Below, one piece after another: positions 14,002-51,412 of a stretch of DNA of 64,000 nucleotides (positions are counted from its first letter, which is position 1; every line of letters begins with the position of its first letter). The notes under the pieces are model-generated. The model saw nothing but the letters and a program-made list of their open reading frames with translations. It had not been told where the DNA came from and did not search any database. The position numbers and the translations under genes are program-made. The stretch comes from Ctena decussata (Eukaryota; Mollusca; Bivalvia; Lucinida; Lucinidae), in NCBI GenBank assembly GCA_963989385.1, contig OZ022498.1, positions 1,371,501 through 1,435,500 on the forward strand. Direction: 5' to 3'.

Positions 14002-14012
14002 CATTCTTTCTA
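14002..14012 (-). promoter_or_regulatory. AGAAAGAATG box, HDE-like, of the 14.1-kb small gene
   Basis: On the - strand, TAGAAAGAATG follows the hairpin at 14023-14039 after an ACCA trailer and a short spacer. It resembles the purine-rich histone downstream element that pairs with U7 snRNA. The functional role is inference. Confidence 0.5.
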
Positions 14013-14022
14013 GTAATATGGT

Positions 14023-14039
14023 GGTCTGTACAACAGACC
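14023..14039 (-). terminator. Histone-like 3' stem-loop of the 14.1-kb small gene
   Basis: On the - strand the 17-mer GGTCTG-TTGTA-CAGACC forms six pairs around a five-base loop, followed by ACCA. It starts 25 nt after the stop codon. Its pairs covary with those of the other copies. Confidence 0.65.
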
Positions 14040-14064
14040 AATTAAAGAGACAGGGACGCCAGAA

Positions 14065-14379
14065 CTACAATTCTTCGTCAGTGATGACATCATCATCTTC
14101 AGAATCGTCAAGTTTCTTCAGCTCGCAGCGTAGATCAAGAATCTCACATCTCTTCATGTCTGCGTAGTGGTAGTATCTCTTCACCAGTCCTTCTGCAACC
14201 AGCATGCGCATGCGTAGAGGAAACCGGAACGTCTTGTAGTCGCTAGATTTTGCCGACTGGAAGCGCTTCTTAAGACCATTCAGTCCAGTGTTGAGGAGCA
14301 GAATCTGGTCACAGGCTCTGTTGAAACGGTGCTGACTGTCGTGGAGATGTGCATATATCTCAAACTTCTTCATAACCAT
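14065..14379 (-). CDS. Small intronless family protein, copy 1 (104 aa)
   Basis: This is an intact single-exon ORF with an ATG start (MVMKKFEIYAHLHDSQHRFN...). The predicted protein is helical: a basic N-terminal half with KKF/RFNRACDQILLL, a central FRFPLRMRMLVAEGLVKRYY motif, a charged CELKKL helix, and an acidic tail with SEDDDVITDEEL. Four near-identical copies and one diverged copy lie in this window. I see no signal peptide, membrane segment or known catalytic motif. The TATA box is 84 bp upstream, and a hairpin plus AGAAAGA box follows the stop. I do not recognise the family. Selection on the protein is suggested by substitutions that leave the frame and motifs intact in every copy. 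Confidence 0.85.
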   Translation of the reverse strand: MVMKKFEIYAHLHDSQHRFNRACDQILLLNTGLNGLKKRFQSAKSSDYKTFRFPLRMRMLVAEGLVKRYYHYADMKRCEILDLRCELKKLDDSEDDDVITDEEL

Positions 14380-14462
14380 GATGTCTTGTAAGATCTTGTA
14401 AAACTTGTAGTGATTAACAAGGCGAATAAAGCTTAATGCTTAAGTTTGTTTTTATTTCTTGT

Positions 14463-14469
14463 TTTATAC
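14463..14469 (-). promoter_or_regulatory. TATA box of small-gene copy 1
   Basis: On the - strand it reads CGTATAAAACAAG, about 85 bp from the start codon. The surrounding 250 bp (including AATTAGCGTGACACACTTAG and a CACGTG word) is shared with the promoters at 28110-28378 and 24209-24450. Confidence 0.65.
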
Positions 14470-15660
14470 GCACACAACGCTTGATACTTTGTAATTAAGC
14501 TAAGTGTGTCACGCTAATTGGGCTTGCTAGGCCGGCTCGTTCTTAACAGCGTAGGCACGTGAGAGCACTAATTAGCTTCTCGTTAAACGCTCTGTTTGTT
14601 AGTCTGTTGGCCACACAGAGAACAATAGCTTTGACGCGTTGTTTCTCATGTTATTTTTTTCCTCCTTTCTTTCTTTCTTTCTTTTTTTCTTAATTTCATT
14701 CTTGTTATGCCTGCATTATACCGGAGCATAATTTCTTGTTTTTTTGTTGTTGTTTTTTTACCTCAATTTTATGTCAGAATGGGTAAAAGAGACATATTTA
14801 AACTACTTTTGGCTGTATCTCATCAAATATGTTTCTTATGCTGAATATTTCAAGATTTTTATAGACCTTTTCAAGATTTTGGATGATATTTCCGGTGAAA
14901 TAATTTCAGCAGTTTCGTTTGACGTCAGTATACTTCAGTTATGAATGCTTAAAATTGAGTATTTATTTGTCAAAGGGGGAGTTCCACCCTATAGGAAATT
15001 AACATAGGGTTCTGCCCACTCACCGAATTCCATAATATTATGCATAGTGATTGTCTAGGACATTACTATTGCCTTTGTGAAATATTTGCTGATCCATCTA
15101 TTTCAATTGTTAAAATACAACATTTTAATTGGATGGGATGCAAAAAATAGGAACACCCTAATTTCAAGCAGCCCACAGCTGTTGGAATTTTTAATTTCTG
15201 ACTCGTTTCATTCTCAAAATGATTCCTAGTAATTTCTGATTATGTATGTACCATGTTTGTATTCAAATGTATAACATAAAACTTTCCATATTAACTTTTG
15301 TTTGCAGATGCCCTCAAATTTCAGCTCCATAAAATTTTTTGAACAAATTAAATTTTCGATTTGACTATGTTGCAGTTCTTGTCAACCTGTCAAATTGATA
15401 TGAAATTAGGCCATACATGTGTAAATCATAATTATAAATTTTCTTGAAAATTGAAAACCGGTAACATGATTTTTTGGAATGTTGAATGTTAACAGTTGAA
15501 AAAACACAACATATAGGAATGCATATACATGTAGTTACGTGATTATTTTTATGCTAATTATTTTTAGTTTTAGTGAATTTTATCATCTCTTTGCATCACC
15601 AAATCCTTTATTGTCGAGCCAACTTGCGGTGAGCGAGACATAGTTGTTACAACTTCAGTT
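14470..15660. other. Spacer after small-gene promoter, no gene seen
   Basis: The first 170 bp are the conserved promoter of copy 1. A TTTC-rich stretch at 14660-14690 follows. The rest is AT-rich with no repeat or open frame I can support. Confidence 0.4.
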
Positions 15661-15716
15661 CAGTGTATGTGCGAAAGTGCGTTAGTGCGTGCGTGCGTTT
15701 GTGCATCCGTCCAGAT

Positions 15717-16810: not shown

Positions 16811-17093
16811 TATTTATTTTGCTTTATACACTGTCGAGTGGTCAGAGTTAATTTAGTTTTCCATTTATTTCCCAGACAAAGTAGATCAATATATCTGCAT
16901 ATGGAGCTTTTTATTATGATTGTAGTTTAGGTTACTATTATTATTACTAGAAAATGAAGTGTTTCTATGAACATATTAACACTCAAATATGACATGCATT
17001 TTTGTCTAACAAATCACCTTCATCTATATTATGCATTATGTGACAATGTTACCGGTTTCCAAAGGGGGGGGGGGGGGTGGGGGGGGGAGGGGG

Positions 17094-20476: not shown

Positions 20477-20534
20477 TATTAATATGTAGAGAAGGTTGGG
20501 CTGTGGAAAAATAGAATGTAGCAACAATATAGGG

Positions 20535-20545
20535 CATTCTTTCTA
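20535..20545 (-). promoter_or_regulatory. AGAAAGAATG box, HDE-like, of the 20.6-kb small gene
   Basis: It is identical to the box of copy 1 and has the same spacing to the hairpin at 20556-20572. Confidence 0.5.
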
Positions 20546-20555
20546 GTAATATGGT

Positions 20556-20572
20556 GGTCTGTAAAACAGACC
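20556..20572 (-). terminator. Histone-like 3' stem-loop of the 20.6-kb small gene
   Basis: On the - strand the 17-mer GGTCTG-TTTTA-CAGACC forms six pairs and is followed by ACCA. It lies 24 nt after the stop codon. Confidence 0.65.
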
Positions 20573-20596: not shown

Positions 20597-20911
20597 CTAC
20601 AATTCTTCGTCAGTGATGACGTCGTCATCTACAACGTCGTCAAGTTTCTTCAGCTCGCAGCGTAGACCAAGAATCTCACTTCTCTTCATGTCTGCGTAGT
20701 GGTAATATCTCTTCACCAGCCCCTCGGCAACCAGCATGCGCATGCGTAGAGGAAACCGGAAAGTCTTGTAGTCGCTAGATTTTGCCGACTGGTAGCGTTT
20801 CTTAAGACCATTTAGTCTTGTGCTGAGGAGCAGAATCTGGTCACAGGCTCTGTTGAAACGGTGCTGACTGTCGTGGAGCTGGGCATACATCTCAAACTTC
20901 TTCATAACCAT
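20597..20911 (-). CDS. Small intronless family protein, copy 2 (104 aa), promoter displaced by a LINE
   Basis: The ORF is intact and nearly identical to copies 1, 3, 4 and 5 (MVMKKFEMYAQLHDSQHRFN ... ). Differences include ALD/ALG-level changes in the middle and VVDDDV in the acidic tail. Upstream homology to copy 1 stops six bases beyond the ATG-proximal leader, where a LINE begins at 20922. The expected leader, TATA box and upstream region reappear at 24209 onward. The coding region and the 3' hairpin are unaffected, so the gene is whole but cut off from its promoter by 3.3 kb. Confidence 0.85.
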   Translation of the reverse strand: MVMKKFEMYAQLHDSQHRFNRACDQILLLSTRLNGLKKRYQSAKSSDYKTFRFPLRMRMLVAEGLVKRYYHYADMKRSEILGLRCELKKLDDVVDDDVITDEEL

Positions 20912-20921: not shown

Positions 20922-22587
20922 GGTTAAAGCAAGGTCAGAATATAAGGCATTATTAAGAAAATGTAGATATGACTACGACAAAAATAAAACTTATGAATGT
21001 GTAAATGCTAGGTATAAAAATGCAAAACTGTATTGGAACTTATTAAAAGAATCAGCAGGCATGAAGCCAGCAAATATTGCGCTTTCCTCTTTTGAACAGT
21101 ATTTTAAAGCAGTAAACAATCCGTCTGAACCATTTTTTAACCCAGATGAAGACGTATTATATTTTAATGAGCGATACGAAAACAACGAATTCGGTATAAT
21201 GTTTGATGAGTTGAATATACATATATCACAAGAAGAAGTCATAAAATCGATAAAACAATTAAAAACAAATAAATCAGGTGGTCCGGATAAACTTATAAAC
21301 GAATTTTTTATACATGGAAAAGACATATTAGGACCGACGTTATGTAACCTTTTTAATAAAATTTTTGAATGTGGATATTTTCCAGAAGAGTGGTCTGTAG
21401 GTTACGTAATTCCGCTTCATAAAAAGGGTAGCAGAAACGATGTAGAAAATTATAGGGGAATCAATCTGTTGAGTGCATTAGGTAAGTTATTTACGAGAAT
21501 CATTAACAACAGATTGTCAGATTGGGCAGAAAATTATTTTATTCTTATTGAGGCGCAGGCTGGTTTTAGACCCGGCATGGGTACAGTGGATAATATTTTT
21601 GTGTTGCATGGGTTAATTGCTCACATACTGAATCAGGGTAAAAAGTTATATTGTGCTTTTATTGATTTTTCAAAAGCTTTTGATTATGTTGTTCGCGAAA
21701 ACTTATGGTATAAACTGGTAAAATTAGGACTGAGGGGAAAGATATTAAATATTATTAAATCCATGTATGCATCAGTTAAATCTAGAGTTAAGTTTTGCAA
21801 TAATTTAGGAAATGAGTTCTACTGTAGCCTTGGTGTAAGACAAGGGGAGTGTTTGTCCCCTCTGTTATTCTCGTTATATCTAAATGATCTCGAAGAGCAA
21901 TTTGTACTTTCAGGAGTAAGTGGTTTAGATGTGAACACGCTTAAATTATTTCTATTATTGTATGCTGATGATATTGTTATTTTTGCAAATACATCGGAAG
22001 AACTTCAGGTAAACTTAAATTTATTAGCTGAGTATTGTGAAAGATGGAAACTGACAATAAATACGTCAAAAACTAAAGTTATGATATTTAGAAAAGGGGG
22101 TATTCTGCCAAGAAATTTAGTTTTTAATTACAATGGTACACCATTAGAAATAGTTAGAAGTTTTAAATATCTTGGAATTGTCTTTACGACTGGGGGATCC
22201 TTTTCGGAAGCTCAGACTACTCTTGCTGGGCAAGCTCAGAAAGCTATTTTCAAACTTAATAGATATTTATATAAATTTACCTTTATATCACCAAAACATA
22301 AACTTGAATTATTTGACAAATTAATAACTCCGATTCTAAATTATGGTTGTGAAGTTTGGGGTTTTTCCCAAGCAAATTCAGTTGAAAGGGTGCATATGCA
22401 GTTTTGCAAACAAATTTTAGGCGTAAAGAAGACAACACAAAATGATTTTGTTTATGGAGAGTTGGGAAGAACTAATTATATAACACGAAGATATTTTATC
22501 ATTATTAAATTTTGGTTAAAACTTTTAATTCGGCCTGAGAACAAATATGTTAGAATAGTTTATGATATGATGGTAAGTGATAGTTAA
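20922..22587 (+). pseudogene. LINE reverse transcriptase, N-truncated part
   Basis: The 555-codon frame lacks the endonuclease domain and starts where full-length ORF2 residue 418 or so would be (VKARSEYKALLRKCRYDYDK). The reverse transcriptase is complete: GGPDKLINEFF, NYRGINLLS, QAGFRPGMGTVDNIF, FIDFSKAFDYV, GVRQGECLSPLLF, and the catalytic YADD near residue 348. It ends early because a deletion relative to the 37-44-kb element (MMVSD followed directly by the equivalent of NWASLV) shifts the frame. Confidence 0.8.
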
Positions 22588-28109: not shown

Positions 28110-28378
28110 AACAACGTGTCAAAGCTAATGTTTTCTGCTGTGACCAATAAAATAATAACCAGAGCGTTAAACAAACGAGATGCCAATTAGTGCTGTCACG
28201 TGCCTATGTTGTCGAGAACGAGCTAGCTAAGCAAGCCCAATTAGCGTGACACACTTAGCTTAATTACCAACTAACAAGCTTTATCTGCGTATAAAATAAG
28301 AAATAAAAACAAACTTCAGCATTATGCTTTATTCGCCTTGTTAGCCACTGCAAGTTTCACAAGATCTTACAAATCACC
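28110..28378 (+). promoter_or_regulatory. Promoter and leader of small-gene copy 3
   Basis: In order: GACCAATAAAA (CCAAT box, about 28142), GTCACGTG, AATTAGCGTGACACACTTAG, a TATA box (TATAAAATAAG at 28290) 89 bp before the ATG, and a short leader ending ACCATGG. The arrangement (CCAAT, TATA, short intronless transcript) is histone-gene-like; that comparison is inference. Confidence 0.7.
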
Positions 28379-28687
28379 ATGGTTATGAAAAAGTTTGAGA
28401 TGTATGCCCAGCTCCACGAGAGTCAGCACCGTTTCAATAGAGCTTGTGACCAGATTCTGCTCCTCAACACCAGACTGAACGGTCTTCGGAAGCGCTACCA
28501 GTCTGCAAAAACCAGCGATTACAAGACTTTCCGGTTTCCTCTACGCATGCGCATGCTGGTTGCCGAAGGGCTGGTGAAGAGATATTACCACTATGCAGAC
28601 ATGAAGAGAAGTGAGATTCTTGATCTACGCTGCGAGCTGAAGAAACTTGACGATTCTGAAGATGATGACGTCATCACTGACGAATGA
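28379..28687 (+). CDS. Small intronless family protein, copy 3 (102 aa)
   Basis: The start context is ACCATGG. The ORF is intact except that two substitutions create TGA where other copies have the penultimate Glu codon, so it ends DDDVITDE without the last two residues. The sequence is otherwise close to copies 1, 2, 4 and 5, with LNGLRKRYQSAKTSDYKTFR in the middle. The promoter (CCAAT and TATA) and the 3' hairpin plus AGAAAGA box are all in place, which makes this the best candidate for an expressed copy of the first promoter type. The function is not known. Confidence 0.87.
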   Translation: MVMKKFEMYAQLHESQHRFNRACDQILLLNTRLNGLRKRYQSAKTSDYKTFRFPLRMRMLVAEGLVKRYYHYADMKRSEILDLRCELKKLDDSEDDDVITDE

Positions 28688-28716: not shown

Positions 28717-28733
28717 GGTCCGTACAATGGACC
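28717..28733 (+). terminator. Histone-like 3' stem-loop of small-gene copy 3
   Basis: The 17-mer GGTCCG-TACAA-TGGACC has five Watson-Crick pairs and one G-T pair, followed by ACA. It lies 29 nt after the stop, with AGAAAGAATG at 28744-28753. Confidence 0.65.
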
Positions 28734-28877
28734 ACATATAACTAGAAAGAATGCCCTATATTGTTGCTATATTCCATGCGCCCCCAGTCTGATTGCCACT
28801 GCATCTATGAACCTCGCCCTTTAAATGTCTACAGAAATTGCCGAAAAGTTAATTAGGCGTCAGATTGACACTCCAAA

Positions 28878-31782: not shown

Positions 31783-31793
31783 TTTCTTTCTTG
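31783..31793 (-). promoter_or_regulatory. CAAGAAAGA box, HDE-like, of the divergent small gene
   Basis: On the - strand the box reads CCAAGAAAGAA, starting 11 bases after the hairpin. CAAGAAAGA is the classical sea-urchin histone downstream element. This is the closest match in the window. Confidence 0.6.
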
Positions 31794-31803
31794 GAATTTG
31801 CAT

Positions 31804-31819
31804 GGCCCGGTAATGGGCC
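31804..31819 (-). terminator. Histone-like 16-nt stem-loop of the divergent small gene
   Basis: On the - strand GGCCCA-TTAC-CGGGCC has the same length, GG start, CC end and four-base UUAC-type loop as metazoan histone stem-loops. The closing pair is an A-C mismatch. It lies 48 nt after the stop codon. Confidence 0.65.
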
Positions 31820-31867: not shown

Positions 31868-32194
31868 TCAGACTTCCGTTTCGTCGTCATCTTCATCAGC
31901 AGAAAAATCAGCATCTCCTGGCTCTTCCCCATATAGTTTAAAACGGAGGTCCAAAATCTCATTCTTTTTCAGACAGATATATTTGCAATACGCCGCCATT
32001 ATGCCCGCTAACACATCTATGCGAATACGCATGCTTAGATGGCCTGTATCTTGGTCCCCAGCTCTGTCGTCTCTGCAGCGTCTGTTCAAAGCTGTAAGTG
32101 TGTCATTGAGTAGTACCAGCTGGTCGGAAGCTCTTTGCAATCGGCGCTGGGTCTCGTACAGTTGGGCGTACATGCTGAACCTCTCCATTCCCAT
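31868..32194 (-). CDS. Divergent paralog of the small intronless family (108 aa)
   Basis: It begins MGMERFSMYAQLYETQRRLQ, which aligns with MVMKKFEMYAQLHDSQHRFN. It keeps RASDQLVLLN (for RACDQILLLN), LSMRIRIDVLAG (for LRMRMLVAEG), KKNEILDLRFKL (for KRSEILDLRCEL) and an acidic tail rich in D/E. Identity is well below that among the other five, so it is an old duplicate with retained frame and motifs. It is intronless, with a TATA box about 100 bp upstream and a hairpin plus CAAGAAAGA downstream. The overlapping + strand frame of 76 codons is a shadow. Confidence 0.85.
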   Translation of the reverse strand: MGMERFSMYAQLYETQRRLQRASDQLVLLNDTLTALNRRCRDDRAGDQDTGHLSMRIRIDVLAGIMAAYCKYICLKKNEILDLRFKLYGEEPGDADFSADEDDDETEV

Positions 32195-32289
32195 TATGGC
32201 GGCTTCTTTGTGACAAGTACTATTTAACTTATTTTCTGCTTTTCAGTGTCTTGAATTGTGAAAACTTTGGGAGATAGGCTGCCATTTTA

Positions 32290-32298
32290 TATGCAGTA
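32290..32298 (-). promoter_or_regulatory. TATA box of the divergent small gene
   Basis: The - strand reads TGCATATAAAATGG, about 100 bp upstream of the ATG at 32194. Confidence 0.6.
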
Positions 32299-33789: not shown

Positions 33790-34978
33790 GAGACGTTCTC
33801 AGTTAAGCTGGGCCATTCGCGGACAAAAATGGCCATATATACAACCATTCCAGAATTCAAGAAAAAATCACGAACATAATGCTCATTATATCTGCTTCAA
33901 ATGTTTAAAATATTTTCAGATAATAGTTTTAGATTATGGAATACCAACCATGTTTAGAGACGTACCCTAACAAATAGAAACGGCGTATTTTGTCACGTTA
34001 TTAAGATACGTTGGAAGACGATGTCGCATACGATTTCTTTGACATGCGTAGCATTGTACATTTACTAATCTACTGACATTTGATTATTTTGGCTGGTTTC
34101 AATTTAAAATGTTTTTCTTTGCTTTTTTGGAAGAAAGGGGTTTTCTATGAAGCGCTGCTTAATCAAATGACGTCAACGCTGTCAAAACGTGGTCTTAGTG
34201 ACGTTGTGACGTAGGTTACGTGTGACGTAGGTTACAGTGCATACATTTTAACGTTTTTATATCATTTAATGTTTCAGTGCATGAAATCTAAGCACACCAT
34301 CTTGTAGCTATAACTAGGCAGGATTTTGCACATGAGTTTCAGAGCGATTGCTTTGCTCAGTTTTCAGAAAAGCCCGTGACGTAAGGTTACATTCTTATAG
34401 AAAAATGCTGGGGTAATGTATTTTGAAGTCGAGTAAAATATACAAAATTGAGCAAATCTGCACAAATGATATAAGATATTGAGGAACACATATTTCTTCA
34501 TGTGATCTTGTAAGTTTTATGATGCAGGGCCATTTTAGTTAATACATGTATCACGAATTTACCGCTGTGACGTAGGTTACATAAAATTTGCGACATTAGT
34601 TCCCAGTCTCATTTCGTAGCAAAAACTACCTTTTAGATATTGTTTAAGCAGGGAAATATGTAAGAAATCATCTGAATTTAAAACTGGAACTCGATTTTCA
34701 GCAGTGATTTATCTTTTTTAGCCGTGTTGCGTTCATATCTATGCAACGGCAATATTGCGACATTTAAAAACGTCGCATTTTAAACCAGGGTATCATTATT
34801 CGAACCAGTGTTAAAACTGTCTAACAAAACGCATGCATGTCCTGGTACTTTTATCTACTTCTTCAGATAGAGGGCAACTTGTCAGAGGGTAAACAGGACC
34901 GTTATTTTGTAATTTAAAGAAAGGTAATACGAAGGACAAAATTAATAGCTAATGGCCCAGCTTAACTGAGAACGTCTC
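33790..34978. mobile_element. Non-autonomous inverted-repeat DNA element, 1.19 kb
   Basis: The termini GAGACGTTCTCAGTTAAGCT and AGCTTAACTGAGAACGTCTC form inverted repeats of about 28 bp. A 4-bp ATCA duplication flanks it (33786-33789 and 34979-34982). It splits an ACGTC-family palindrome. It contains no transposase-like frame. Four TGACGTAGGTTAC-like motifs lie inside. Confidence 0.8.
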
Positions 34979-35624: not shown

Positions 35625-35879
35625 TGGCACATTGCACAAGTAATGACGTGTCAAAATTGAGTTCAGGCTGAACAGCCCTGACAAGCTCAAGTGAGCTCCA
35701 AACAATTCAAAGTTCTTTGACACACGCCTTGATCATTGTAATTGCAGCTTTTACGCTTGACATAAACTTCTCGCAAACTTGACAAACAAAGCCCTTGTCG
35801 CAAATAAAACTTGGCAAACTTTTGTTAGTACTTCATTCTGTCTTCAGTATCTTTCTGTAGAAGATTTAAATTTACCATC
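35625..35879 (+). promoter_or_regulatory. Second-type promoter and leader of small-gene copy 4
   Basis: It is shared with 49730-49984 but not with copies 1-3. It contains GTAATGACGTGTCAAAATTG, GAGCTCCAAACAATTC, CTTGACAAACAAAGCCC and AATAAAACTTGGCAAAC, then a pyrimidine-rich start region (CATTCTGTCTTCAGTATCTT) 40 bp before the ATG. No perfect TATA box; AATAAAA is the nearest. Confidence 0.5.
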
Positions 35880-36194
35880 ATGGTTATGAAGAAGTTCGAG
35901 ATGTATTCCAAGCTCCACGACAGTCAGCGCCGTTTCAACAGAGCCTGCGACCAGATTCTGCTCCTCAACACTAGACTGAATGGTCTTAAGAAGCGCTATC
36001 AGTCGGCAAAATCCAGTGACTACAAGACTTTCCGGTTTCCTCTACGCATGCGCATGCTGGTTGCAGAAGGACTGGTGAAGAGATATTACCACTACGCAGA
36101 CATGAAGAGAAGTGAGATTCTTGATCTACGCTGCGAACTGAAGAAACTTGACGAGTCTGAAGATGATGACGTCATCACTGACGAAGAATTGTAG
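35880..36194 (+). CDS. Small intronless family protein, copy 4 (104 aa)
   Basis: An intact ORF begins ATGGTTATGAAGAAG (MVMKKFEMYSKLHDSQRRFN) and ends DDDVITDEEL. It differs from copies 1-3 by YSKLHDSQRR near the N-terminus and an otherwise nearly constant middle and tail. It has the second promoter type, shared with copy 5. The hairpin and AGAAAGA box follow. It is probably functional, but expression cannot be judged from sequence. Confidence 0.88.
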   Translation: MVMKKFEMYSKLHDSQRRFNRACDQILLLNTRLNGLKKRYQSAKSSDYKTFRFPLRMRMLVAEGLVKRYYHYADMKRSEILDLRCELKKLDESEDDDVITDEEL

Positions 36195-36219: not shown

Positions 36220-36233
36220 GGTCCATATGGACC
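36220..36233 (+). terminator. Histone-like 3' stem-loop of small-gene copy 4
   Basis: TGGTCC-ATAT-GGACCA gives six pairs and a four-base loop, followed by CATATTACT and AGAAAGAATG at 36244. It begins 25 nt after the stop. Confidence 0.65.
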
Positions 36234-37042
36234 ACATATTACTAGAAAGAATGCCCTATATTGTTGCTAAACTTTGATCAGCCTGCGCATACGCAAAATC
36301 TCTTTAGGCTTCTCTGTGCCTGTATGAATAATACATGATGTCATATAATGGAATATAGATTTTGATAAGCCGGCGCATACACAAAGTCTGGGTAGGCTTA
36401 TCGCTGGTTGTATGAATAATCTATGACGTCGTATAACGAAAACAAAGATTTTGACCAGCCTGGGGGTTTCGCACTGTCCGGTTAGGTTCGCCCCTGTGCG
36501 GCTCAAAAAGTCTCTAATGACATTAAAGAAAACATTGTTTGATCAGCCTGTGCATACGCAAAGTCCGGTCAGGTTTGTCCTTACTTGCATGAAGACTCAA
36601 ATAAGCCTGCACAACAGTGTCTCTGAGGCTCCCACACGTTTTAATTTTATAACAAAAGCCAGTGGCGTTACACAAGCATGCCTACCTTTCGGTAGACTTT
36701 CAGGGGAAGCAACTCTGTCATTTTTATTTTTTTCTGCTTTCTCGATGGGAGTCATTTCTTAAAGAAAAGACTTTGCTCCTCTAGGAGCAAATTCTTTTCT
36801 CTAAGAATAGACACCATTTTGAAAGGGTTCGTCTTTTAAGGAAGTCATGAAAGTTGTCTCCCCTTGAAAAAATGACAGAGAAACATGAAGATGTATCCAT
36901 AGACGTTAAGTATGGTTTCTAGGAAGAGAACGTGACGTATTTATTAGGTTGTATTATCCCTCCAAAATTACCACAAATATGTAAATTAGTCTTGTGTAAT
37001 TCAGCTATAAAAATATTCACTTTTTTCTTCCGAAACAATCCC

Positions 37043-37083: not shown

Positions 37084-37601
37084 AAATTGCTTTTGAAAAA
37101 AAGTCTTAAAACTGAATAAATACGGTTCAAATTATTGAAACATTATATTATTAAGTTTACAAATAACCGTAGATTCTTTATTTCATCCACTTAGGACAGC
37201 ATAACAAGAACATACAACAAATAAACAACAATAAATGGCATAAACAATAGAAATAATTGCACAAAATGAATCATATTTAAGTTAGACCATGTGAAAATAA
37301 AATATGAGAACGTAGTTCAGTGTACTGACTGTACGTCCAAATAGCAAATATTTCTCTTTTCTTCCTCAGTCTCTTCGGAATATCGATATTTTTTTTTTTT
37401 TTTTGACCACGTGACATGGCGGACAGTGCAGTCGCTTTGTATGACGCTCTGAATGTTTTTTAAAATTACAATTGCTTTAGTTTGGAAACTTGGAATTTTG
37501 TAATGAACTGTTTGCTAATAAGTTCGGTGGTCTTAGTTTGGACAGTTTTCTGGTATTGGGAGGTGTTGTATTTCGGTTCTGGCGGTGGTATTGGCGGGAT
37601 T

Positions 37602-39104
37602 ATGGCATCCAACTATGGCGTGTTTAGTAATGGCGGACGGTTCGGTGTATTATCGGAAGGAAAGGATCTCGATCCTAGTGATATTAGTGACTTTTGTGAT
37701 TTTACTGGGAAAAGGAAACGGATAAACTCTAGTGATACGGCATTTACAAGCGTAAGTTTCAACAATAAATCTATTGACACTAAACTTTCACTCATATTTG
37801 ATGAACTCCAAAATATCAAATCAGGTCAAGAAGGTACACAAAAAATGGTGGCTGCTACATATGAGGCAACGAAGTTGGCGTGTACAAAATTAAACCAGGT
37901 TGCTTTTGTGACAAATAAACAGTCCGAGTTGCTTAAGACTATGGCATATAAACAAATTGATTTGGAAGCCAGGAGCAGACGAAATAATTTAGTTGTGTGG
38001 GGCGCTGAAGAACGGCAAAATGAAAACTGTTTTCAAATTGTTAGACAATTAATAGGATCAAATTTAGGTTTGGAGGCTGATAATATGTACCTCGCCCGTG
38101 CTCATAGGTTGGGGCCGTGGCGCAGTGATGTCCGGGTTAATAAACGACCGATAATTGTAAACTTTAGAGATTATTGTGATTTAGAGTTGGTGTTGAGTAA
38201 AGCCTTCATGTTGAAAAATACCCAGTACTCTTTAGACCGTGACTTGCCTAAAGAAATCAGTGAGGCTCGGAAGAGGTTATGGCCGAAATTCAAGTCAATG
38301 AAAAGTGACAATCCAAGGGCTAGAGTCAAAATTTTGTACCCTGCTAAACTTGTTTGTGACAAAGCGGTTATTCAGGATGAGTTTCCCGATTGGTACTCTG
38401 TACTAGCGAGAAGCAGGATTGGTGCGTTGCCGTGTATTGATATCACTCCCCAACCTGAGCCTCTTCTTGCCGAGTTGGCGCATGTAAGTGGACCAATGTC
38501 ACGTGGCTCATTTATGAATGACAAAGATACAGGTAGCTGCCAGTTCCCAGCACGTGACAATATTAGTGCGCAGCCACGTGATAACATGAATATAAATAGT
38601 TCTTCACTATCTTGCCCTAGTTCACAGGCTGATGAGATGCTCTTGATGGATTTTGAGGTGCAACTGCAACATATTACTGAATCGCAGAAGAGTAGTGAGC
38701 TGCAAATAGGTGAAATTACAGAGCCGGATAGCGTTCCAGAACACGAGCACTCTACGAACAAGGGGGCTAGCGTTAGTCAAACTGCCAAACATTCACTCTT
38801 TAAGCCGTATGACAATAAGCCGGACGAGCCAGTGCAAAGTAAAAAATCAACTCCACTAAGTCGAGATTCCAAGCAATCTAATGGACCGTCTACAGTAATT
38901 GGACATGGGCATGTTTCACGCTCGCCAACACGAAATACGGAAAATCTTCGTCGAACCCAGTCAGCTGACGTTCGACAGCATCGCGATCGCGTCTCCAGTC
39001 GTGACAGGCGTTTCAGGCAATTTTCCGCTAATAGACAGTTAGGGCAAACTGATAAACTCGAGCATACGGAGGAACCGACAGCTACAGGTGGTACGCAAAG
39101 TTAG
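37602..39104 (+). CDS. LINE ORF1, nucleic-acid-binding protein
   Basis: The open frame runs from about 37482, but the first plausible start is ATG 37602 (MASNYGVFSNGGRFG); ATG 37503 is an alternative. A short coiled region is followed by the motif QIDLEARSRRNNLVVWG and then an RRM-like block (PIIVNFRDYCDLELVLSKAF). This order is typical of LINE ORF1 proteins that bind RNA and act as chaperones. The C-terminal third is Ser/Pro/Gln-rich and disordered, with RDRVSSRDRRFRQ near the end. The stop is UAG at 39102-39104, in the same frame as ORF2. Confidence 0.85.
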   Translation: MASNYGVFSNGGRFGVLSEGKDLDPSDISDFCDFTGKRKRINSSDTAFTSVSFNNKSIDTKLSLIFDELQNIKSGQEGTQKMVAATYEATKLACTKLNQVAFVTNKQSELLKTMAYKQIDLEARSRRNNLVVWGAEERQNENCFQIVRQLIGSNLGLEADNMYLARAHRLGPWRSDVRVNKRPIIVNFRDYCDLELVLSKAFMLKNTQYSLDRDLPKEISEARKRLWPKFKSMKSDNPRARVKILYPAKLVCDKAVIQDEFPDWYSVLARSRIGALPCIDITPQPEPLLAELAHVSGPMSRGSFMNDKDTGSCQFPARDNISAQPRDNMNINSSSLSCPSSQADEMLLMDFEVQLQHITESQKSSELQIGEITEPDSVPEHEHSTNKGASVSQTAKHSLFKPYDNKPDEPVQSKKSTPLSRDSKQSNGPSTVIGHGHVSRSPTRNTENLRRTQSADVRQHRDRVSSRDRRFRQFSANRQLGQTDKLEHTEEPTATGGTQS

Positions 39105-42100
39105 GTTGTACAGGAGAGGGTGAACCTTAGAATATCATTACTAAATGTTCAGGGCTTGATTTCTAAGCGGGTAAATAAGCTTAAAAGTAAAAAGTTACTT
39201 TCTATTTTTCAAAACAATGATATTATTTTGTTAACCGAATCATGGACAAGCGATATTTCTGATCTGAATGTTGACGGTTTTGAGTGTTTTCCATTGCACA
39301 GAATTAGTAAGCCAGGTAGTAAGCGTAATTCTGGCGGCATAGTAATTTATATTAGAACTCAGTATGTGACTGATGATATCGTGTTTTCTCGAAGCGATGA
39401 CGATATTTTGTGGTTGAAAATTAGTGGACCCAAAATTAATCTTGTAAATGATTTATACCTAGGATTATGTTATGTTATACCGGAACTTAGCAGCAGACAA
39501 TCGATGGTTGACACTTGCACTTTTGATAGACTGAATGATTCTATTGTGTCTATAAATAGCATGACAAATGAGCAATGTAATATCCTACTTGCAGGTGATT
39601 TTAACAGCAGAACGTCTGACAATGCTGATTATGTTACGTTTGATTCAGACTCCAACTTTGTTGTACTTCCCGATGACTACATTTCTGATAAGTTTTTACC
39701 TAGATTTTCTCAGGATAAAGGGCATTTGAATAGTAACGGCACGTTTTTACTTGATCTGTGCAAACAAACAGGTTTACGCATATTAAATGGTAGGGTTGGT
39801 AGTGATGCAGGCATTGGGAAGTATACTTTCGTTGGTCATAGGGGTAGTAGTTTAGTAGACTACTTTCTAGCATCTGAAAGCATTTTTAACTTAGTTAAAT
39901 ATTTTGATGTCAAAGAACCTAATATACTTTCTGATCACTGTCTAGTTAGCCTTGAGTTACAGTTGCCTGAAATTGTTTTAAACAGAAATAATGAGAATAA
40001 TTTTCATGTACGAAATCAGCAAGTTCAATCTAAATTAGTATGGAATAATGAGTTGAAAGATCGCTTTGTTGAAGAGTTGCAGTCTGAAAGTGTTTTCTCT
40101 AGCTTTAATGATTTAAATAGGATGGCTGAAAATTGCTCGAATGCAAGCGATATAAATAATGTTGTAAATGGTATTGTTACCGTGTTAGAAAATGTCGCGA
40201 ATCCCTTATTTCAAAAACGTTTGTCTCCCAAAAAGAATACTGGAGTGAATAGTAAAAATGAGAACCCATGGTATAATAGAGAATGTGATGAATTAAAACA
40301 CGAGTTTTTGAAAAATTTAAATATTTTTAGGCAAAATAAATGTGATATGACAAGAATAAACTTAGTAAAATCTCGGTCAAAATATAAAAGTAGGTTAAGG
40401 AAGAGCAAATTCGAATATGATAAACAAAATACTATAAAGCTTGAGGAATCCAGACGCAAAGACGCAAAAACATACTGGAGAATGCTAAAAGAATCTTGTG
40501 GTATTAAAACGTCTCAAATTGATATAACAACTTTTGAAAATTATTTCAAAGCTATAAATAACCCAAACGACCATTTTTTCTCACCTGATGAAGATGTTAT
40601 ATATTTCAATGAAAGATATCTTAAGGATGAATTCGAAATAATGTTTGAGGAGCTTAACTCTGTAATAACACAACAGGAAGTGTCTAAATCTATTAAACAA
40701 CTGAAATGTGGGCGTAGTGGTGGCCCTGACCAATTATTAAATGAATTTTTCATATATGGTGAAAAAGTTCTAACACCTGTTCTGTTGACCATTTTTAATA
40801 AGTGTTTTAGCGTTGGCTATTTTCCCGAAGCATGGTCAGATGGCTATATAGTCCCTTTGCATAAAAAAGGAAGTATAAATAATCATGAAAACTATAGGGG
40901 CATAACATTGTTGAGTACATTAGGCAAACTATTCACACGCATCCTTAATAACAGGTTGAAGGATTGGGCGGAAAATTACCATGTGTATATTGAGTCTCAA
41001 GCTGGTTTTCGGTCAAATATGGGGACTGTTGATAATATTTTTGTTTTACATGGACTTATAACACATACATTAAATAGCGGGTCAAAATTATTTTGCGGAT
41101 TTGTCGATTTTACGAAGGCCTTTGATTATGTTGTTAGGGAAAATTTGTGGATGAAACTTATAAAACTGGGCCTAAGGGGACATATGTTAAATATAATTCA
41201 ATCTATGTATAAATCCGTTAAGTCTAAAGTCAAATATGCAAATGAGTTGAGTAGCGACTTTTCGTGTACACTTGGCGTTAGACAAGGCGAATGTCTTTCA
41301 CCCTTTCTTTTTGCAATGTTTTTAAATGATCTAGAAGAACAATTTATACAAAATGGTTTTGATGGTGTTACTGTTGATATGATTAAAATGTTAGTTTTGT
41401 TATATGCTGACGATATTGTATTATTTTCTGAAACTGCAGAAGGTCTTCAGCAAGGCTTTGACATTCTTTTAGATTATTGCAATAGGTGGAAAATGAAAGT
41501 CAATACAAATAAAACAAAAGTTATGGTTTTTAGGAAAGGGGGTCAAATTGCACGTCATGTACACTTCTCATACGATGGGAACAATATAGAAATTGTAAAA
41601 TTATTTACATATTTAGGCATTGTTTTCACACAGGGTGGGTCATTTCATGAAGCTCAACATACTTTAGCTGGCCAGGCACAAAAAGCAATTTTCAAATTAA
41701 ATAAATATTTATATAAATTCACCGATATTACTGTTAAGCATAAGCTTGACTTATTTGACAAACTAGTTTTACCGATTTTGAACTATAGTGCGGAAGTTTG
41801 GGGGTTTATCCCGGCATTAAATATAGAAAGAGTTCATACTCAGTTTCTGAAGAAGGTTTTAAATGTTAAAGTATCTACGCAAAATGATTTCATTTATGGC
41901 GAAGTGGGTCGCAAAAACTTGGCTGTCAACAGACAGTTTAGAATTATTAAATACTGGTTAAAAATTATTTTGTCAAATGAGCACAAATATATAAAAAATA
42001 TTTATAAAATGATGTTAAGCGATATTGAGTTATATCCTAACAAGACCAACTGGGCTAAACTTGTTAAGCATTTATTAGAATCTCTGGGTTTTGGCGATGC

Positions 42101-42614
42101 ATGGTTATATCAAGGTGTAGGAAACACGGACTTGTTTTTATTGGAAGTCCGACAACGTTTAAACGATAATTTCATACAGATTTGGAATGCACGACTAGAA
42201 AATTCACATAGAGCATTATTTTATAGAAATATTTATAATAACTATTTCGAGTTCAAAAATTATTTAAATTGTGTTAATATTTCAAAATATAGGTATGCAT
42301 TAACTCGATTGAAAGTTTCGTCACATCGATTGGAGGTAGAAGCAGGTCGTTGGCAAAAACCCATTCGCAAACCTTTTCATGAACGTAAATGTATTTTTTG
42401 TGATAAATTAGAAGATGAGTATCATTTCATCGCAGAATGCTCCTTATATCAGGATTTAAGGAAAATGTATATTAATAGCTATTTCTGGAAAAGGCCAAGC
42501 ATGTTTAAAGTAATACAGCTTTTTAATTCTGATAATGTGAAACAGATAAAAAATTTAGGTGTTTTTATTTATAAAGCTTTTGAAAAAAGAAGATCAGTTT
42601 TCCAAAATGTTTAG
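39105..42614 (+). CDS. LINE ORF2, endonuclease/reverse transcriptase
   Basis: The frame is open directly from the ORF1 stop (39105) to TAG at 42612-42614, about 1165 codons or more. The APE endonuclease comes first: RISLLNVQGL, LLTESW, LLAGDFNSR (about residue 158), LVDYFLAS and ILSDHCLV (about 270). The reverse transcriptase follows: GGPDQLLNEFF, NYRGITLLSTLGK, AGFRSNMGTVDNIF, FVDFTKAFDYV, VRQGECLSPFLF and catalytic YADD near residue 762. A C-terminal CIFCDKLEDEYHFIAEC motif may bind nucleic acid. There is no in-frame AUG before the catalytic endonuclease region (first Met near residue 129), so how translation begins is unclear. Confidence 0.9.
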   Translation, partial: VVQERVNLRISLLNVQGLISKRVNKLKSKKLLSIFQNNDIILLTESWTSDISDLNVDGFECFPLHRISKPGSKRNSGGIVIYIRTQYVTDDIVFSRSDDDILWLKISGPKINLVNDLYLGLCYVIPELSSRQSMVDTCTFDRLNDSIVSINSMTNEQCNILLAGDFNSRTSDNADYVTFDSDSNFVVLPDDYISDKFLPRFSQDKGHLNSNGTFLLDLCKQTGLRILNGRVGSDAGIGKYTFVGHRGSSLVDYFLASESIFNLVKYFDVKEPNILSDHCLVSLELQLPEIVLNRNNENNFHVRNQQVQSKLVWNNELKDRFVEELQSESVFSSFNDLNRMAENCSNASDINNVVNGIVTVLENVANPLFQKRLSPKKNTGVNSKNENPWYNRECDELKHEFLKNLNIFRQNKCDMTRINLVKSRSKYKSRLRKSKFEYDKQNTIKLEESRRKDAKTYWRMLKESCGIKTSQIDITTFENYFKAINNPNDHFFSPDEDVIYFNERYLKDEFEIMFEELNSVITQQEVSKSIKQLKCGRSGGPDQLLNEFFIYGEKVLTPVLLTIFNKCFSVGYFPEAWSDGYIVPLHKKGSINNHENYRGITLLSTLGKLFTRILNNRLKDWAENYHVYIESQAGFRSNMGTVDNIFVLHGLITHTLNSGSKLFCGFVDFTKAFDYVVRENLWMKLIKLGLRGHMLNIIQSMYKSVKSKVKYANELSSDFSCTLGVRQGECLSPFLFAMFLNDLEEQFIQNGFDGVTVDMIKMLVLLYADDIVLFSETAEGLQQGFDILLDYCNRWKMKVNTNKTKVMVFRKGGQIARHVHFSYDGNNIEIVKLFTYLGIVFTQGGSFHEAQHTLAGQAQKAIFKLNKYLYKFTDITVKHKLDLFDKLVLPILNYSAEVWGFIPALNIERVHTQFLKKVLNVKVSTQNDFIYGEVGRKNLAVNRQFRIIKYWLKIILSNEHKYIKNIYKMMLSDIELYPNKTNWAKLVKHLLESLGFGDAWLYQGVGNTDLFLLEVRQRLNDNFIQIWNARLENSHRALFYRNIYNNYFEFKNYLNCVNISKYRYALTRLKVSSHRLEVEAGRWQKPIRKPFHERKCIFCDKLEDEYHFIAECSLYQDLRKMYINSYFWKRPSMFKVIQLFNSDNVKQIKNLGVFIYKAFEKRRSVFQNV

Positions 42615-46890: not shown

Positions 46891-47114
46891 GCTTCCAGAA
46901 CTGACAATTTAAAATAGTATATGATGTACAAGAAGTTGACATGGTCAGGCTGCAAGTGGCTACACCGCCTTCCAAACCCTTGCAACCTGATCTGGCGATC
47001 TTTTGGATAATAAATGGTACCGAGAAAGAATTCGGCATGGTCAGGTGCCTGTGATCGAACCAAGGTCCAAGCATCATGCCCCCTGACCATGTATCTTTCT
47101 AGTCATCGCCAAAA

Positions 47115-48672
47115 CTGAAAAGTTTATATACATATAATATAAGTACAGAGGCAAATTGATTGTATGATACACAGTATCTGATGATAACTGTTTTTTCGTT
47201 ATACGTTCTTTAAAGTAATGCAGTCACAGTATTTCTGCATTTGACATAAAAATAAAATAAATTAATTATAATCTATTATTGGAAGACGCTAATTGCAATA
47301 TAATTTTGATGAACTTACAGAGGTTCTTTAGCTGTTTAATATTTCTGACATTCATCAGTTCATTAAACTTAATAACGTTTGGGTTTGAAGTAAAATACGG
47401 TTTGACATACTTTTTTCTTTCAGTGTTGAAAGCAGAACAACGCATCAAAACGTGAAATTCGTCCCCTACTTCTTGCTCGCAGAAATTACATTTTCTTTCT
47501 GACATTTCTAAACCTATCCATTTACCCGTTTCAATTGACAGCCTGTGGTTTCTGGTTCGGAAGTGGCATAAATCTCTTTTCATATTATAGGGCAGTTTTA
47601 ACATGTAATACTCTAATTCGAACTTTTCCTTAAAAAGCCTATAGTTTAAACTTGTTGAGCTATTTGAAATATTTGAAAACCATTCATTTATGAATATATC
47701 TTTCAATTTTTGTTTGACGCTTTTTACTAACCATATAGGGTTGTCTACGCTTTGTTTATCCCAAACGCCACTAAAACCACATCTTATGAGGATGTTCTTG
47801 ACATAGTTTAGCCATGCCGAGGCTTCTGTTCGATATTCAGTGTATATGAATTGATATAACATGGAAGAAACCTTATTACTTTCACTTTCGACTAATTTCG
47901 TCCAATAAGAAACCATTCGGGTCTGTATATCTATTTCTATCGGATAAACACCGAATTCGCCATACACAAATATGTTAGGAGTCGACGATTTCAAGTTAAA
48001 CATGGATTTAAGGAAACGAAGTTGAACTTTCTCTAGTAGTTTGCAGTTGCTAAACCCCCATTTTTCACATGCATATGATAAAATGGGCTTTATCATTTTG
48101 TCAAAAAGATTAATTTGCAAATCTACGACAAGCTGAAGGTTATGAATATTTCTTAACAATGTTGTGAGTGCCTTATTTGCTTGTTCGTATATATGTTTTA
48201 TGGTTACGTGGAAAGACCCTGTTCGAGTGAAGTATATTCCTAGATATTTATAACTATTAACAACTTCTAATGGTATTTTGTCATAAGTAAAAGCAATGTT
48301 TTTGGGCATTCGCCCTTTCCCAAAAACGACGACTTTTGTTTTGCTGATATTAACTGTTAATTTCCATGTTGTGCAATATGTCTTAAACGTGTCTAGTGCG
48401 TATTGTAGATCTTTCGCGGATTCAGCAACAAGAGCAGTATCATCTGCGTAAAGAAAAACGAATAATTTGAAAAACATTACTGCTCGGTCGGTATCATTCG
48501 TAGGTTTCGTATCGCAAGTAATCCCATTTACATTCTGTGACCTCAAAAATTCTTCTAGGTCATTTAGGTAAAGGCTAAACAGAAAGGGAGATAAATTGTC
48601 GCCTTGTCTGACACCGATAGTGCAATCGAAAAATGCCGAGGTTTCTCCATTTACAAATACGCAGGACTCTTC
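47115..48672 (-). mobile_element. 5'-truncated LINE of a second subfamily
   Basis: It is oriented on the - strand. The coding remnant begins within the reverse transcriptase near 48672 and the 3' UTR ends near 47115. It is related to, but clearly diverged from, the 37.4-44.2-kb element. It truncates against the upstream flank of segmental duplication block B. Confidence 0.75.
47266..48670 (-). pseudogene. LINE reverse transcriptase C-terminal remnant
   Basis: The frame is open from about 48670: TSAFFDCTIGVRQGDNLSPF and FLYADDTALVAESAKDL, then FYTYLG/KYLGIYF-type RT thumb blocks and a C-terminal CNFCEQEVGDEFHVLMRC motif before the stop at 47266-47268. The endonuclease and the first half of the RT are missing. 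No stop interrupts the remaining 465 or so codons, so the insertion is fairly young. The frame has no natural start. Confidence 0.8.
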
Positions 48673-49001
48673 AACCTGGCTATATCCGTATATCCGTATA
48701 CATCAATGTACCAAGTTAAGTTAATGTTTTCAATGAACATGACTTTTATTTCACCTAGCAACAGAAATATACATAGTTTGCGTTTCATAATATGAGAATA
48801 GGTCACATTGACGGTAAAATAAAGAAACCTTCAGTTCTGTTTATTATAACGTTACACAATTAAAATAAGCTAATTGAAGATTTCCTACAAGAGTAAATTC
48901 GTGTATCACTTTTTTTCTTCTCACGTTTTCAACGAATGTAGTGAAAATTACTTTTCAAAATATGTATTCAATTCTCACAGAAGTTTTATCAATATGTTAT
49001 A

Positions 49002-49239
49002 TGAGCCGCGACACGAGAAAACCAACAATGTGGTTGTGCGCCCAGCGCAGACTCAGATCAGCATGGGCATCCGCAAAGTCCGATCAGACTCTTCGCTTAA
49101 CGCTTAAAGGGTAGCTAAGGGTCTAAGCTACCTCCACGCGGACAGCGAAAACTCTGATCAGACTGGGCGGATGCCCAGGCTGATCTGAGTCTGCGCTGGG
49201 CGCACAACCACATTGTTGGTTTTCTCGTGTCGCGGCTCA
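49002..49239. repeat. Palindromic MITE (GAGCCGCGACACGAG family), best copy
   Basis: Near-perfect ends TGAGCCGCGACACGAGAAAA / TTTTCTCGTGTCGCGGCTCA are flanked by TA on both sides. That would fit a TA target site, but other copies do not show it clearly. Confidence 0.85.
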
Positions 49240-49379
49240 TATGTATATTTTATTACTTTCTATGCAGAAAAAAATGCTATTAAAGGAAAATATATTGAAA
49301 ACACGTAAATTACAAATAAATAAAATACAGCAATGCTGTAGTTTGATATATTAATTTTAATCGACTTTATTTGGCTGAT

Positions 49380-49610
49380 AAGCATTAGAATTGAGACATA
49401 CACGTACGTTTTCGATAGGATTTTGATAAATTTTTGGCACCTTCTCCGCTGAACAATGTAATAAAAAAAAGTTCCATCACTATTTTAATCTTTGGGGAAT
49501 ATAGTGTGCATGTGCATGTATCGTAGTATATGCTTTGTACTATCTGCCGTCATTTAGAAAAGAATGTTGTCCTCATGGGCCTATGGCTTATTGGATTTAT
49601 GAATAAAGTT
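49380..49610 (+). mobile_element. LINE 3'-end fragment
   Basis: CACCTTCTCCGC, CTCATGGGCCTATGGC and a terminal AATAAAG match the 3' termini at 24000-24208 and 44035-44220. Confidence 0.65.
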
Positions 49611-49729
49611 GGTACTACTATCTCGTAAATGTAATGGTTAGGTTTTATTTATTCGTGTTAAATGAAGAATTTGATAATAATAATAATTATAATAAAAACT
49701 AATTTAAATTACAATAATTATAAAAGATG

Positions 49730-49984
49730 GCACATTGCACAAGTAATGACGTGTCAAAATTGAGTTCAGGCTGAACGACCCTGACAAGCTCAAGTGAGCT
49801 CCAAACAATTCAAATTCTGCTTTGACACACGCCGTAATCATTGTAATTACAGCTTTTACACTTGACATAAACTTCTCGCAAACTTGACAAACAAAGCTCT
49901 TATCGCGAATAAAACTTGGCAAACATTTGTTAGTGCTTCATTCTGTCTTCAGTATCTTTCTGTAGAAGATTTAGCTTTATAATC
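49730..49984 (+). promoter_or_regulatory. Second-type promoter and leader of small-gene copy 5
   Basis: Nearly identical to the region upstream of copy 4, with the same GTAATGACGTGTCAAAATTG and CATTCTGTCTTCAGTATCTT words. Confidence 0.5.
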
Positions 49985-50302
49985 ATGGTTATGAAGAGGT
50001 TTGAGATGTATTCCAAGCTCCACGACAGTCAACACCGTTTCAACAGAGCCTGTGACCAGATTCTGCTCCTCAACGCCAGACTGAATGGTCTGAAGAAGCG
50101 CTACCAGTCGGCAAAATCCAGCGACTACAAGACTTTCCGGTTTCCTCTACGCATGCGCATGCTGGTTGCAGAAGGACTGGTGAAGAGATATTACCACTAC
50201 GCAGACATGAAGAGAACTGAGATTCTTGATCTACGCTGCGAGCTGAAGAAACTTGACGATTCTGAAGAAGATGATGATGTCATCACTGACGAAGAATTGT
50301 AG
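49985..50302 (+). CDS. Small intronless family protein, copy 5 (105 aa)
   Basis: An intact ORF, closest to copy 4 (MVMKRFEMYSKLHDSQHRFN). The acidic tail is one residue longer (DSEEDDDVITDEEL) through an in-frame triplet insertion. In-frame length variation in the tail with no frameshift in any copy supports a protein under selection. The hairpin plus AGAAAGA box follows. Confidence 0.88.
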   Translation: MVMKRFEMYSKLHDSQHRFNRACDQILLLNARLNGLKKRYQSAKSSDYKTFRFPLRMRMLVAEGLVKRYYHYADMKRTEILDLRCELKKLDDSEEDDDVITDEEL

Positions 50303-50327
50303 TTCTGGCGGCCCAGTCTCTTTAAAT

Positions 50328-50345
50328 GGTCTGTTTTTACGGACC
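50328..50345 (+). terminator. Histone-like 3' stem-loop of small-gene copy 5
   Basis: GGTCTG-TTTTTA-CGGACC pairs over six positions with one T-G pair, followed by ACCA and AGAAAGAATG at 50357-50366. It begins 25 nt after the stop. Confidence 0.65.
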
Positions 50346-51412
50346 ACCATATTACTAGAAAGAATGCCCTATGTTGTTGCTAAATTTTGATCAGCCTGCG
50401 CATAAGCAAACTGTCGTTAGACTTGTCTCTGCCCGTGTGACTAATATATGATGTCATATAATGGAATATAGATTTTGATAAGCCTGCGCATACACTAAGT
50501 CTGGTTAGGCTTATCGCTGGTTGCATGAATAATCTATGACGTCGTATAACGAAAACAAATATTTTGACCAGCCTGTGGATTCGCAATGTCCGGTTAGGTT
50601 CGCCTCTGTCCGCATAAAAAATCTCTAATGACATTAAAAAACATTGTTTGATCAGCCTGTGCATATGCAAAGTCCGGTTAGGCTTGTCCCTGTTTGCAAG
50701 AAGACTCCAATAAGCCTGCTCAACAGTGTTTCTGTGGCTCCCACATGTTTTAATTCTGTGACAAAAGCCAGTGGCGGAGGGCCTATCATAACATAAGCAT
50801 GCCTACCTTTTGGTACACTTTCAGGAGAAGCAACTCTGTCATTTTAATTTTTGCTGCTTTTCTCAATGGGGGTCAGTTCTTTAAAAGAAATAGTTTGCTT
50901 CTCCTGGAGCAAAATCTTTCCTTTAAGAGTAAGCTCGTTTTAGAAGGTTTCGTCATTCAAGGAAGTCATGAAAGCTGTCCGACTTCGAAATAAGGCAGAT
51001 AGGTGTACGCATACATCATAAATATGGTTTCCTGTAAAATTATTGAAACATACAACGGTATCCACCAAAGAGGGCATGTAAAAAGAACATATAACAAATG
51101 AAGAAGAATAAGAGGCATAAAAATGAATTGCACAAATAAATTATACCAGAATCTGGGAAAAATTGATAAATATGAGAGGATACATGCTGGTGGTACTGAC
51201 TGTTCCAGCAAAGTTGACTTGCCTTACAATGCCAGTACTTTTTATCGCAAAAACAAGTCAGGGAGCCGGGAAATTCCATAAAACGACAATGTACGGCTTT
51301 GTTTATAAAGAGGAATGGGTGCACTTCCATGTTTTCCACCATTCTACGAAGGGAAATAACTTTTGTGACTTCCTGTTAGCCTCCCTGGTTTATGAAGCCC
51401 TACCATAATTGG

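Follow-up and report, generated by a model that had tools for sequence, protein, structure and literature searches.

A histone-like 3' element with a non-canonical stem-loop on a family of small non-histone genes in the bivalve Ctena decussata

The DNA analysed here (the window) is a stretch of 64,000 nucleotides (nt) of contig OZ022498.1 from the bivalve Ctena decussata. It contains six genes for small proteins, numbered g1 to g6 in their order along the window, each of which is followed by a GG...CC hairpin and by a purine-rich box. This 3' element is real, sharply bounded and conserved on a protein family that is not histone; its layout is histone-like and its stem-loop is non-canonical. 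The likeliest explanation, to which we give slightly less than even confidence, is a histone-type 3' end that depends on U7, lacks poly(A) and has a relaxed hairpin. In its fuller form, put forward a shade more cautiously still, this explanation says that a non-histone family with two subfamilies may have been recruited to the 3'-end system of histone mRNAs, i.e., to U7 and SLBP or a tolerant relative of SLBP, with a relaxed stem-loop.

Six genes with a common 3' element

The six open reading frames (ORFs) of 102-108 amino acids (aa) of the original prediction were all recovered from the ORF list of the window, at their places and on their strands. Five of them form subfamily A, namely g1 (14065-14379, minus strand, 104 aa), g2 (20597-20911, minus, 104 aa), g3 (28379-28687, plus, 102 aa), g5 (35880-36194, plus, 104 aa) and g6 (49985-50302, plus, 105 aa), and the sixth, g4 (31868-32194, minus, 108 aa), represents subfamily B. 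Their description as multicopy and intronless agrees with a single uninterrupted ORF in 6/6 copies, which leaves room for introns in the untranslated regions (UTRs). The A proteins are mutually 89-94% identical and share 35-43% identity with the g4 protein. Pairwise ratios of nonsynonymous to synonymous divergence (dN/dS) among the five A copies amount to 0.10-0.35 (0.12-0.35 for g1 against g2, g3, g5 and g6), which indicates purifying selection, and thus all five, g2 included, look maintained as proteins. In comparisons of g4 with the A copies, dS is saturated; it reaches 3.6-3.7 in two pairs and lies beyond calculation in three. Genes g5 and g6 are located inside a duplication of ~1.4 kb with 87% identity; within it, an 88-bp tandem repeat immediately follows the 3' element of each gene, at 36273-36436 and 50384-50549.

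As had been predicted, a GG...CC hairpin was located behind each gene when both strands of the window were scanned. The hairpins are GGTCTGTTGTACAGACC in g1 (14023-14039, minus, 17 nt; 7 bp with a loop of 3 nt or 6 bp with a loop of 5 nt), GGTCTGTTTTACAGACC in g2 (20556-20572, minus, 17 nt), GGTCCGTACAATGGACC in g3 (28717-28733, plus, 17 nt), GGCCCATTACCGGGCC in g4 (31804-31819, minus, 16 nt; 5 bp with a loop of 6 nt), GGTCCATATGGACC in g5 (36220-36233, plus, 14 nt) and GGTCTGTTTTTACGGACC in g6 (50328-50345, plus, 18 nt). The predicted distance of 18-48 nt between stop codon and hairpin holds at its upper end and is too short at its lower end, with 25, 24, 29, 48, 25 and 25 nt in g1 to g6. ACCA or a close variant had been expected behind the hairpin; ACCA itself is present in g1, g2 and g6 (3/6), while g3 and g5 have ACAT and g4 has ATGC. 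The AGAAAGA box was found 10-12 nt behind the hairpin in 6/6 copies. It takes the form CTAGAAAGA in the A copies and CAAGAAAGA in g4 (31785-31793, minus), with AGAAAGAA constant in all six. In the A copies it is part of a longer conserved block, which spans 13988-14020 in g1 (minus; AGAAAGA at 14005-14011), 20521-20553 in g2 (minus; 20538-20544), 28735-28767 in g3 (plus; 28744-28750), 36235-36267 in g5 (plus; 36244-36250) and 50348-50380 in g6 (plus; 50357-50363). A perfect octamer, ATGCAAAT, immediately follows the hairpin of g4 and precedes its purine box (31796-31803, minus), possibly by chance.

The scan asked for AGAAAGA at a distance of 8-14 nt behind a GG...CC hairpin that is 14-18 nt long and has 5 bp or more, a definition that was fitted after the six sites had been seen. 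It returned six sites in 64 kb, all of them at the six genes, while 0.02 sites per 64 kb are expected from 300 first-order Markov sequences. As the five A copies are close paralogues, these sites count as only two independent cases, one for the A copies together and one for g4. By itself the box is common: the window has 16 occurrences of MAAGAAAGA against 2.65 expected, many of them in simple repeats, CAAGAAAGA occurs three times and an additional CTAGAAAGA without a hairpin is located at 47102 (minus). The rarity resides in the combination of hairpin and box, not in the box itself.

Constraint, covariation and the limits of the element

In the stretch of 35 nt past the hairpin, 3 of 35 ungapped columns are variable among the five A copies, a count that omits one indel column at the second C of ACCA. 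For comparison, 30 of 105 third codon positions are variable, 11 of 22 positions between stop codon and hairpin, 31 of the 38 ungapped columns found over the 60 nt past the block and 98 of 121 positions in the region upstream, the last figure being inflated by a retroelement in front of g2. These counts support a constraint that is confined to the coding sequence, the hairpin and the box block. Compensatory changes lend moderate support to the hairpin as an RNA structure: in the six sequences 3/7 pairs have changed on both sides and 95.2% of the cells pair, and sliding the hairpin partner lowers pairing to 22-38%. Out of 500 shuffles, 12 reached the observed covariation score, 16 the paired percentage, 35 the number of double-change pairs and 220 the number of further pair types, in a test for which the structure was derived from the same six sequences, five of them close. 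The divergent paralogue g4 has kept hairpin and box despite its saturated dS, and it can be aligned to the A block through AGAAAGAA..CC.TAT..GTTGC. In a bare pairwise alignment of its flank with that of g5, only 2 of 400 shuffles scored as high.

The limits of the common sequence invite the question whether the flank belongs to a mobile cassette, for instance a Helitron-like 3' end that spreads the ORF. Helitron 3' ends consist of a hairpin followed after about 10-12 nt by CTRR, with unrelated flanks beyond. CTAG is found 8-9 nt past the hairpin in the five A copies, and the homology between the promoter groups (g1 and g3 against g5 and g6) is cassette-like, as it starts 1-4 nt before the ATG and stops ~80 nt past the stop codon. 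However, conservation continues for 22 nt past CTAG in 5/5 A copies and g4 has CAAG at this place, by which a Helitron-type element is largely refuted. In addition, no solo copy is present in the 64 kb, the A copies are under purifying selection, and upstream promoter regions are common to g1 and g3 and to g5 and g6. A cassette is thus very improbable.

The main rival explanation is that the six genes give rise to ordinary polyadenylated mRNAs, in which hairpin and block constitute a conserved regulatory element of the 3'UTR that acts on stability, localisation or translation, e.g., in oocytes, and resembles a histone end by coincidence, with poly(A) added further downstream. What chiefly divides it from the histone-type explanation is the part of the block that lies past the box. 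Cleavage behind the hairpin would remove this part from the mature mRNA, so that it would have to work at the level of the pre-mRNA or the DNA, e.g., through wider U7 pairing or by signalling termination; with polyadenylation further downstream, it would be plain 3'UTR. A block that passes the expected end of a histone-type mRNA, together with a hairpin that deviates from the SLBP consensus in 6/6 copies, speaks for polyadenylation. So do the poly(A) signals further on, as the first AATAAA follows 415-921 nt downstream in g3, g4, g5 and g6 and ATTAAA ~330 nt downstream in g5 and g6, and some relatives of the proteins are encoded on contigs of 0.6-1.7 kb, which are possibly transcripts. Closer to the genes, neither AATAAA nor ATTAAA is present within 320 nt downstream of the six stop codons, and for g1 and g2 neither within 1 kb, although AATAAA occurs at 1.24 per kb per strand in the window; because of this density the missing signals prove little alone. 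Moreover, the promoter groups share no poly(A) site further on, as their homology ends ~80 nt past the stop codon, and it is left unexplained why a GG...CC hairpin and a purine box at just this spacing are the most conserved parts. On balance, we consider polyadenylated mRNAs of this kind unlikely, at somewhat better than one chance in four.

Comparison with histone 3' ends

As a yardstick, nine stem-loops were taken from two contigs with animal-type histone genes. All nine are 16 nt long and score 26.9-37.5 bits with the Rfam model Histone3 (RF00032), and 4/9 are at or above its gathering score of 34. In scans of the gene flanks over 4227 Rfam families, Histone3 arose for g2 (14.4 bits, E 0.2, the best of the six), g6 (12.8 bits, E 0.8) and g5 (12.5 bits, E 1), and no match to it was listed for g1, g3 or g4. 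Thus sub-threshold matches fall at the predicted place and strand in 3/6 copies, none of them significant alone. Missing the score of 34 is not decisive, since only 4/9 real ends reach it; what decides is the gap between 14.4 and 26.9 bits. A second model, R1, was built from the nine real stem-loops, which score 37.8-42.8 bits with it by construction, being its training set. With R1, g2 reaches 13.3, g6 12.2, g1 8.1 and g5 7.8 bits, and in the 36.4 kb from 14002 to 50420 g2 ranks second and g6 third. Because Histone3 arises at the predicted place in three copies and g2 and g6 take these ranks, the likeness to histone ends seems more than an impression of a reader.

Judged by score, the hairpin does not hold up as the 16-nt SLBP stem-loop (12.5-14.4 bits or none against 26.9-37.5). 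It is non-canonical in 6/6 copies, with lengths of 14-18 nt, differing loop lengths and 5 GG...CC stem pairs in g4 and g5. The GGTC stem itself is no objection, because two histone genes (H2A and H2B) of contig JAOZOU010000036.1 have the stem GGTCTT...AAGACC as well; the loop is. Further observations weigh against a histone-type end in the same way. Those short scans gave equally high scores to unrelated Rfam families (15.1 and 16.1 bits, for example); with R1, g1 and g5 rank 11th and 20th and g3 and g4 stay outside the best 25, and the top match (14.3 bits) at 34754 is not beside any of the six genes. The flank of g4 aligns weakly with those of g1, g2, g3 and g6, where 30, 12, 76 and 18 of 400 shuffles score as high, the conserved block runs 18 nt beyond AGAAAGA, which U7 pairing need not explain, and the promoter elements are not common to all six copies. 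What has stood of the predicted histone-style 3' end is its layout, the covariation, the constraint, the retention in g4 and the lack of a near poly(A) signal, and what has not is a canonical stem-loop score.

The six genes resemble replication-dependent histone genes in being intronless, in occurring in several copies, mostly with a TATA-type promoter, and in having a GG...CC hairpin soon after the stop codon, a purine-rich box 10-12 nt past the hairpin and no nearby poly(A) signal. Histone genes differ in their 16-nt stem-loop of 6 bp with a U-rich loop of 4 nt, whereas the hairpins of the window have variable loops and far lower scores; furthermore, the proteins of the window are no histones and conserved letters continue past the box. 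The downstream element of histone genes, which pairs with U7, is purine-rich and located about 10-15 nt past the hairpin. We take the box form of g4, CAAGAAAGA, to be that of the sea-urchin element, for which a literature search found nothing relevant. The window holds no histone gene according to tblastn with five histones, and R1 gave nothing above 14.3 bits in 14002-50420. Histone-type 3' ends outside the main cluster are described (PMC5011920) for Hydractinia H3.3.2, H2B.3 and H2B.4, which in contrast to the present proteins are histones. The contig JAOZOU010000036.1 is filed as part of a bacterial metagenome-assembled genome and carries at 1-5648 an animal-type histone cluster with 5S rRNA, U1 and U2, which is probably a contamination; an arrangement of histone genes with 5S rRNA, U1 and U2 is also described for Hydractinia (PMC5011920).

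A hairpin-plus-box 3' end may also be formed without SLBP or by another machine, e.g., by Integrator acting on a 3' box of the small nuclear RNA (snRNA) type, or by U7 together with some protein that binds the hairpin in place of SLBP. The box AGAAAGAA is constant in 6/6 copies while the loop length varies, unlike at SLBP sites, and the conserved letters past the box fit such an end as well. Integrator 3' boxes are known to accompany snRNA-type promoters, whereas in g1, g3 and g4 a protein-coding ORF is preceded by TATAAA, and both the GG...CC ends of the hairpin and the ACCA of three copies suggest a histone-type end. This possibility is therefore rated as improbable, though not negligible.

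According to the histone-type explanation, most copies would be transcribed from a TATA-type promoter as an ORF without intron, U7 snRNP would pair with the AGAAAGA box and cut the pre-mRNA a few nt past the hairpin, and the mRNA would end in the hairpin without poly(A). The relaxed hairpin with its variable loop may be recognised by a tolerant SLBP or by a paralogue of SLBP; alternatively, the hairpin may be less important because the U7 pairing is strong. In mouse extract, processing by a U7 that pairs with the substrate over 15 bp did not depend on SLBP (PMC7026596), which makes strong box pairing with a relaxed hairpin a coherent, if hypothetical, reading. We infer U7 pairing, cleavage, the lack of poly(A) and an expression tied to the cell cycle or the germline. 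According to the literature, no mRNAs other than those of histones are known to lack poly(A), be it in eukaryotes (PMC7026596) or in animals (PMC1924863). If the explanation is true, the messages of the six genes would be the first in animals, apart from those of histones, to end in a hairpin and lack poly(A), and the protein would be made in step with the histones. The histone 3'-end system would then not be histone-specific, and the copies would constitute a natural set of altered hairpins for probing the tolerance of SLBP. It would also point to an unknown protein that is needed in histone-like amounts, and such genes would be missed by poly(A)-selected RNA sequencing (RNA-seq).

The protein family, its promoters and the neighbouring sequence

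The proteins had been described as non-histone, and this is borne out: no Pfam family was accepted, either for g5 and g4 or in a scan of 52 members, and in that scan no histone family appeared up to E 0.1. A search of protein and structure databases, which the original prediction had suggested, gave 64 relatives for subfamily A (E up to 1) and 9 for subfamily B, and a profile search gave 134 (E up to 10), 120 of which are listed; the search needs short exact words in common with the query, so that distant relatives may escape it. The named relatives come from two bivalves, Mactra antiquata (ACF0H5_000858) and Dreissena polymorpha (DPMN_041327 and DPMN_127986); they belong to the same family, group with subfamily B in the tree and are annotated as hypothetical only. 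The family is thus probably bivalve, as far as its sequence relatives tell. No relative by sequence was found in the PDB. NCBI or nr is the source for 3/121 relatives, which fits genes that are missed by poly(A)-selected RNA-seq, but also other causes, e.g., small ORFs that are skipped in annotation.

In a tree of 92 rows, which is built on few columns and whose bootstrap is not settled, the 50 rows of subfamily A form a single clade with support 99/99, outside which g4 and the remaining B rows lie, and the A copies of the window fall into a fork of 12 rows together with seven relatives (85/98). The relatives P0073, P0099 and P0102 were placed in subfamily B by sequence and are outside the tree. 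Judged by equal length of the longest contig, members of both subfamilies apparently lie on the same contig in eight cases; these contigs comprise 579460, 2889725, 5635752, 588787, 1994700, 621538, 360948 and 173959 bases. The subfamilies A and B probably split before the species represented here.

AlphaFold2 predicts two long helices, at residues 2-45 and 49-96 for an A protein (pLDDT 91) and at 2-43 and 49-88 for g4 (pLDDT 83). In the modelled fold the two helices run antiparallel as a hairpin, whose turn is basic-aromatic and conserved, and the tail is acidic; the conserved FRFPLRMR would sit at the turn and the start of the second helix. In the A proteins the first 45 residues carry a charge of +5 to +8 and the tail past residue 86 one of -6 to -8; the corresponding values for g4 are +2 and -11. 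The predicted fold itself reveals no function, and one can only guess at a role of the chromatin or chaperone type in dividing cells or germ cells.

Promoters in the style of histone genes, with TATA and CCAAT boxes, had been expected, and this applies to some of the copies. TATAAA is found in g1 (14463-14468, minus) and g3 (28290-28295, plus), in both 89 nt before the ATG, and in g4 (32286-32291, minus) 97 nt before the ATG. The TATA-like AATAAAA takes its place at -77 in g5 (35803-35809, plus) and g6 (49908-49914, plus), neither motif is present upstream of g2, and CCAAT occupies a common position (-142) in g1 and g3 only. The upstream region is common to g1 and g3, and another one to g5 and g6. 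Homology between g2 and g1 ends 10 nt upstream of the ATG, and the sequence that starts 12 nt upstream of the g2 ATG is an open retroelement frame; as this frame abuts g2, the gene is without the promoter region of its paralogues. Its protein is under purifying selection relative to the other copies despite the missing paralogue-type promoter.

The frame next to g2 extends over 20923-22587 (plus; ORF 21061-22587, open upstream to 20923) and looks reverse-transcriptase-like by eye; its ORF resembles one at 39504-42614. The latter region is part of 37503-42614 (plus), between g5 and g6, where two long ORFs (533 and 1036 aa) resemble a non-LTR retroelement, the second matching RVT_1 and an endonuclease family staying just under the cut-off. 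A related-looking ORF was noticed by eye at 47266-48477 (minus). A dispersed repeat of ~240 bp has several occurrences near g2, g3, g4 and g6, one of them 434-671 nt from the g2 ATG. Towards the end of the window, within 61011-63264 (minus), a 45-bp tandem repeat is present in 36 copies (61264-62885); part of it is coding sequence of a Thr/Pro-rich, mucin-like ORF (61011-61490), the end of which resembles a transmembrane helix by eye.

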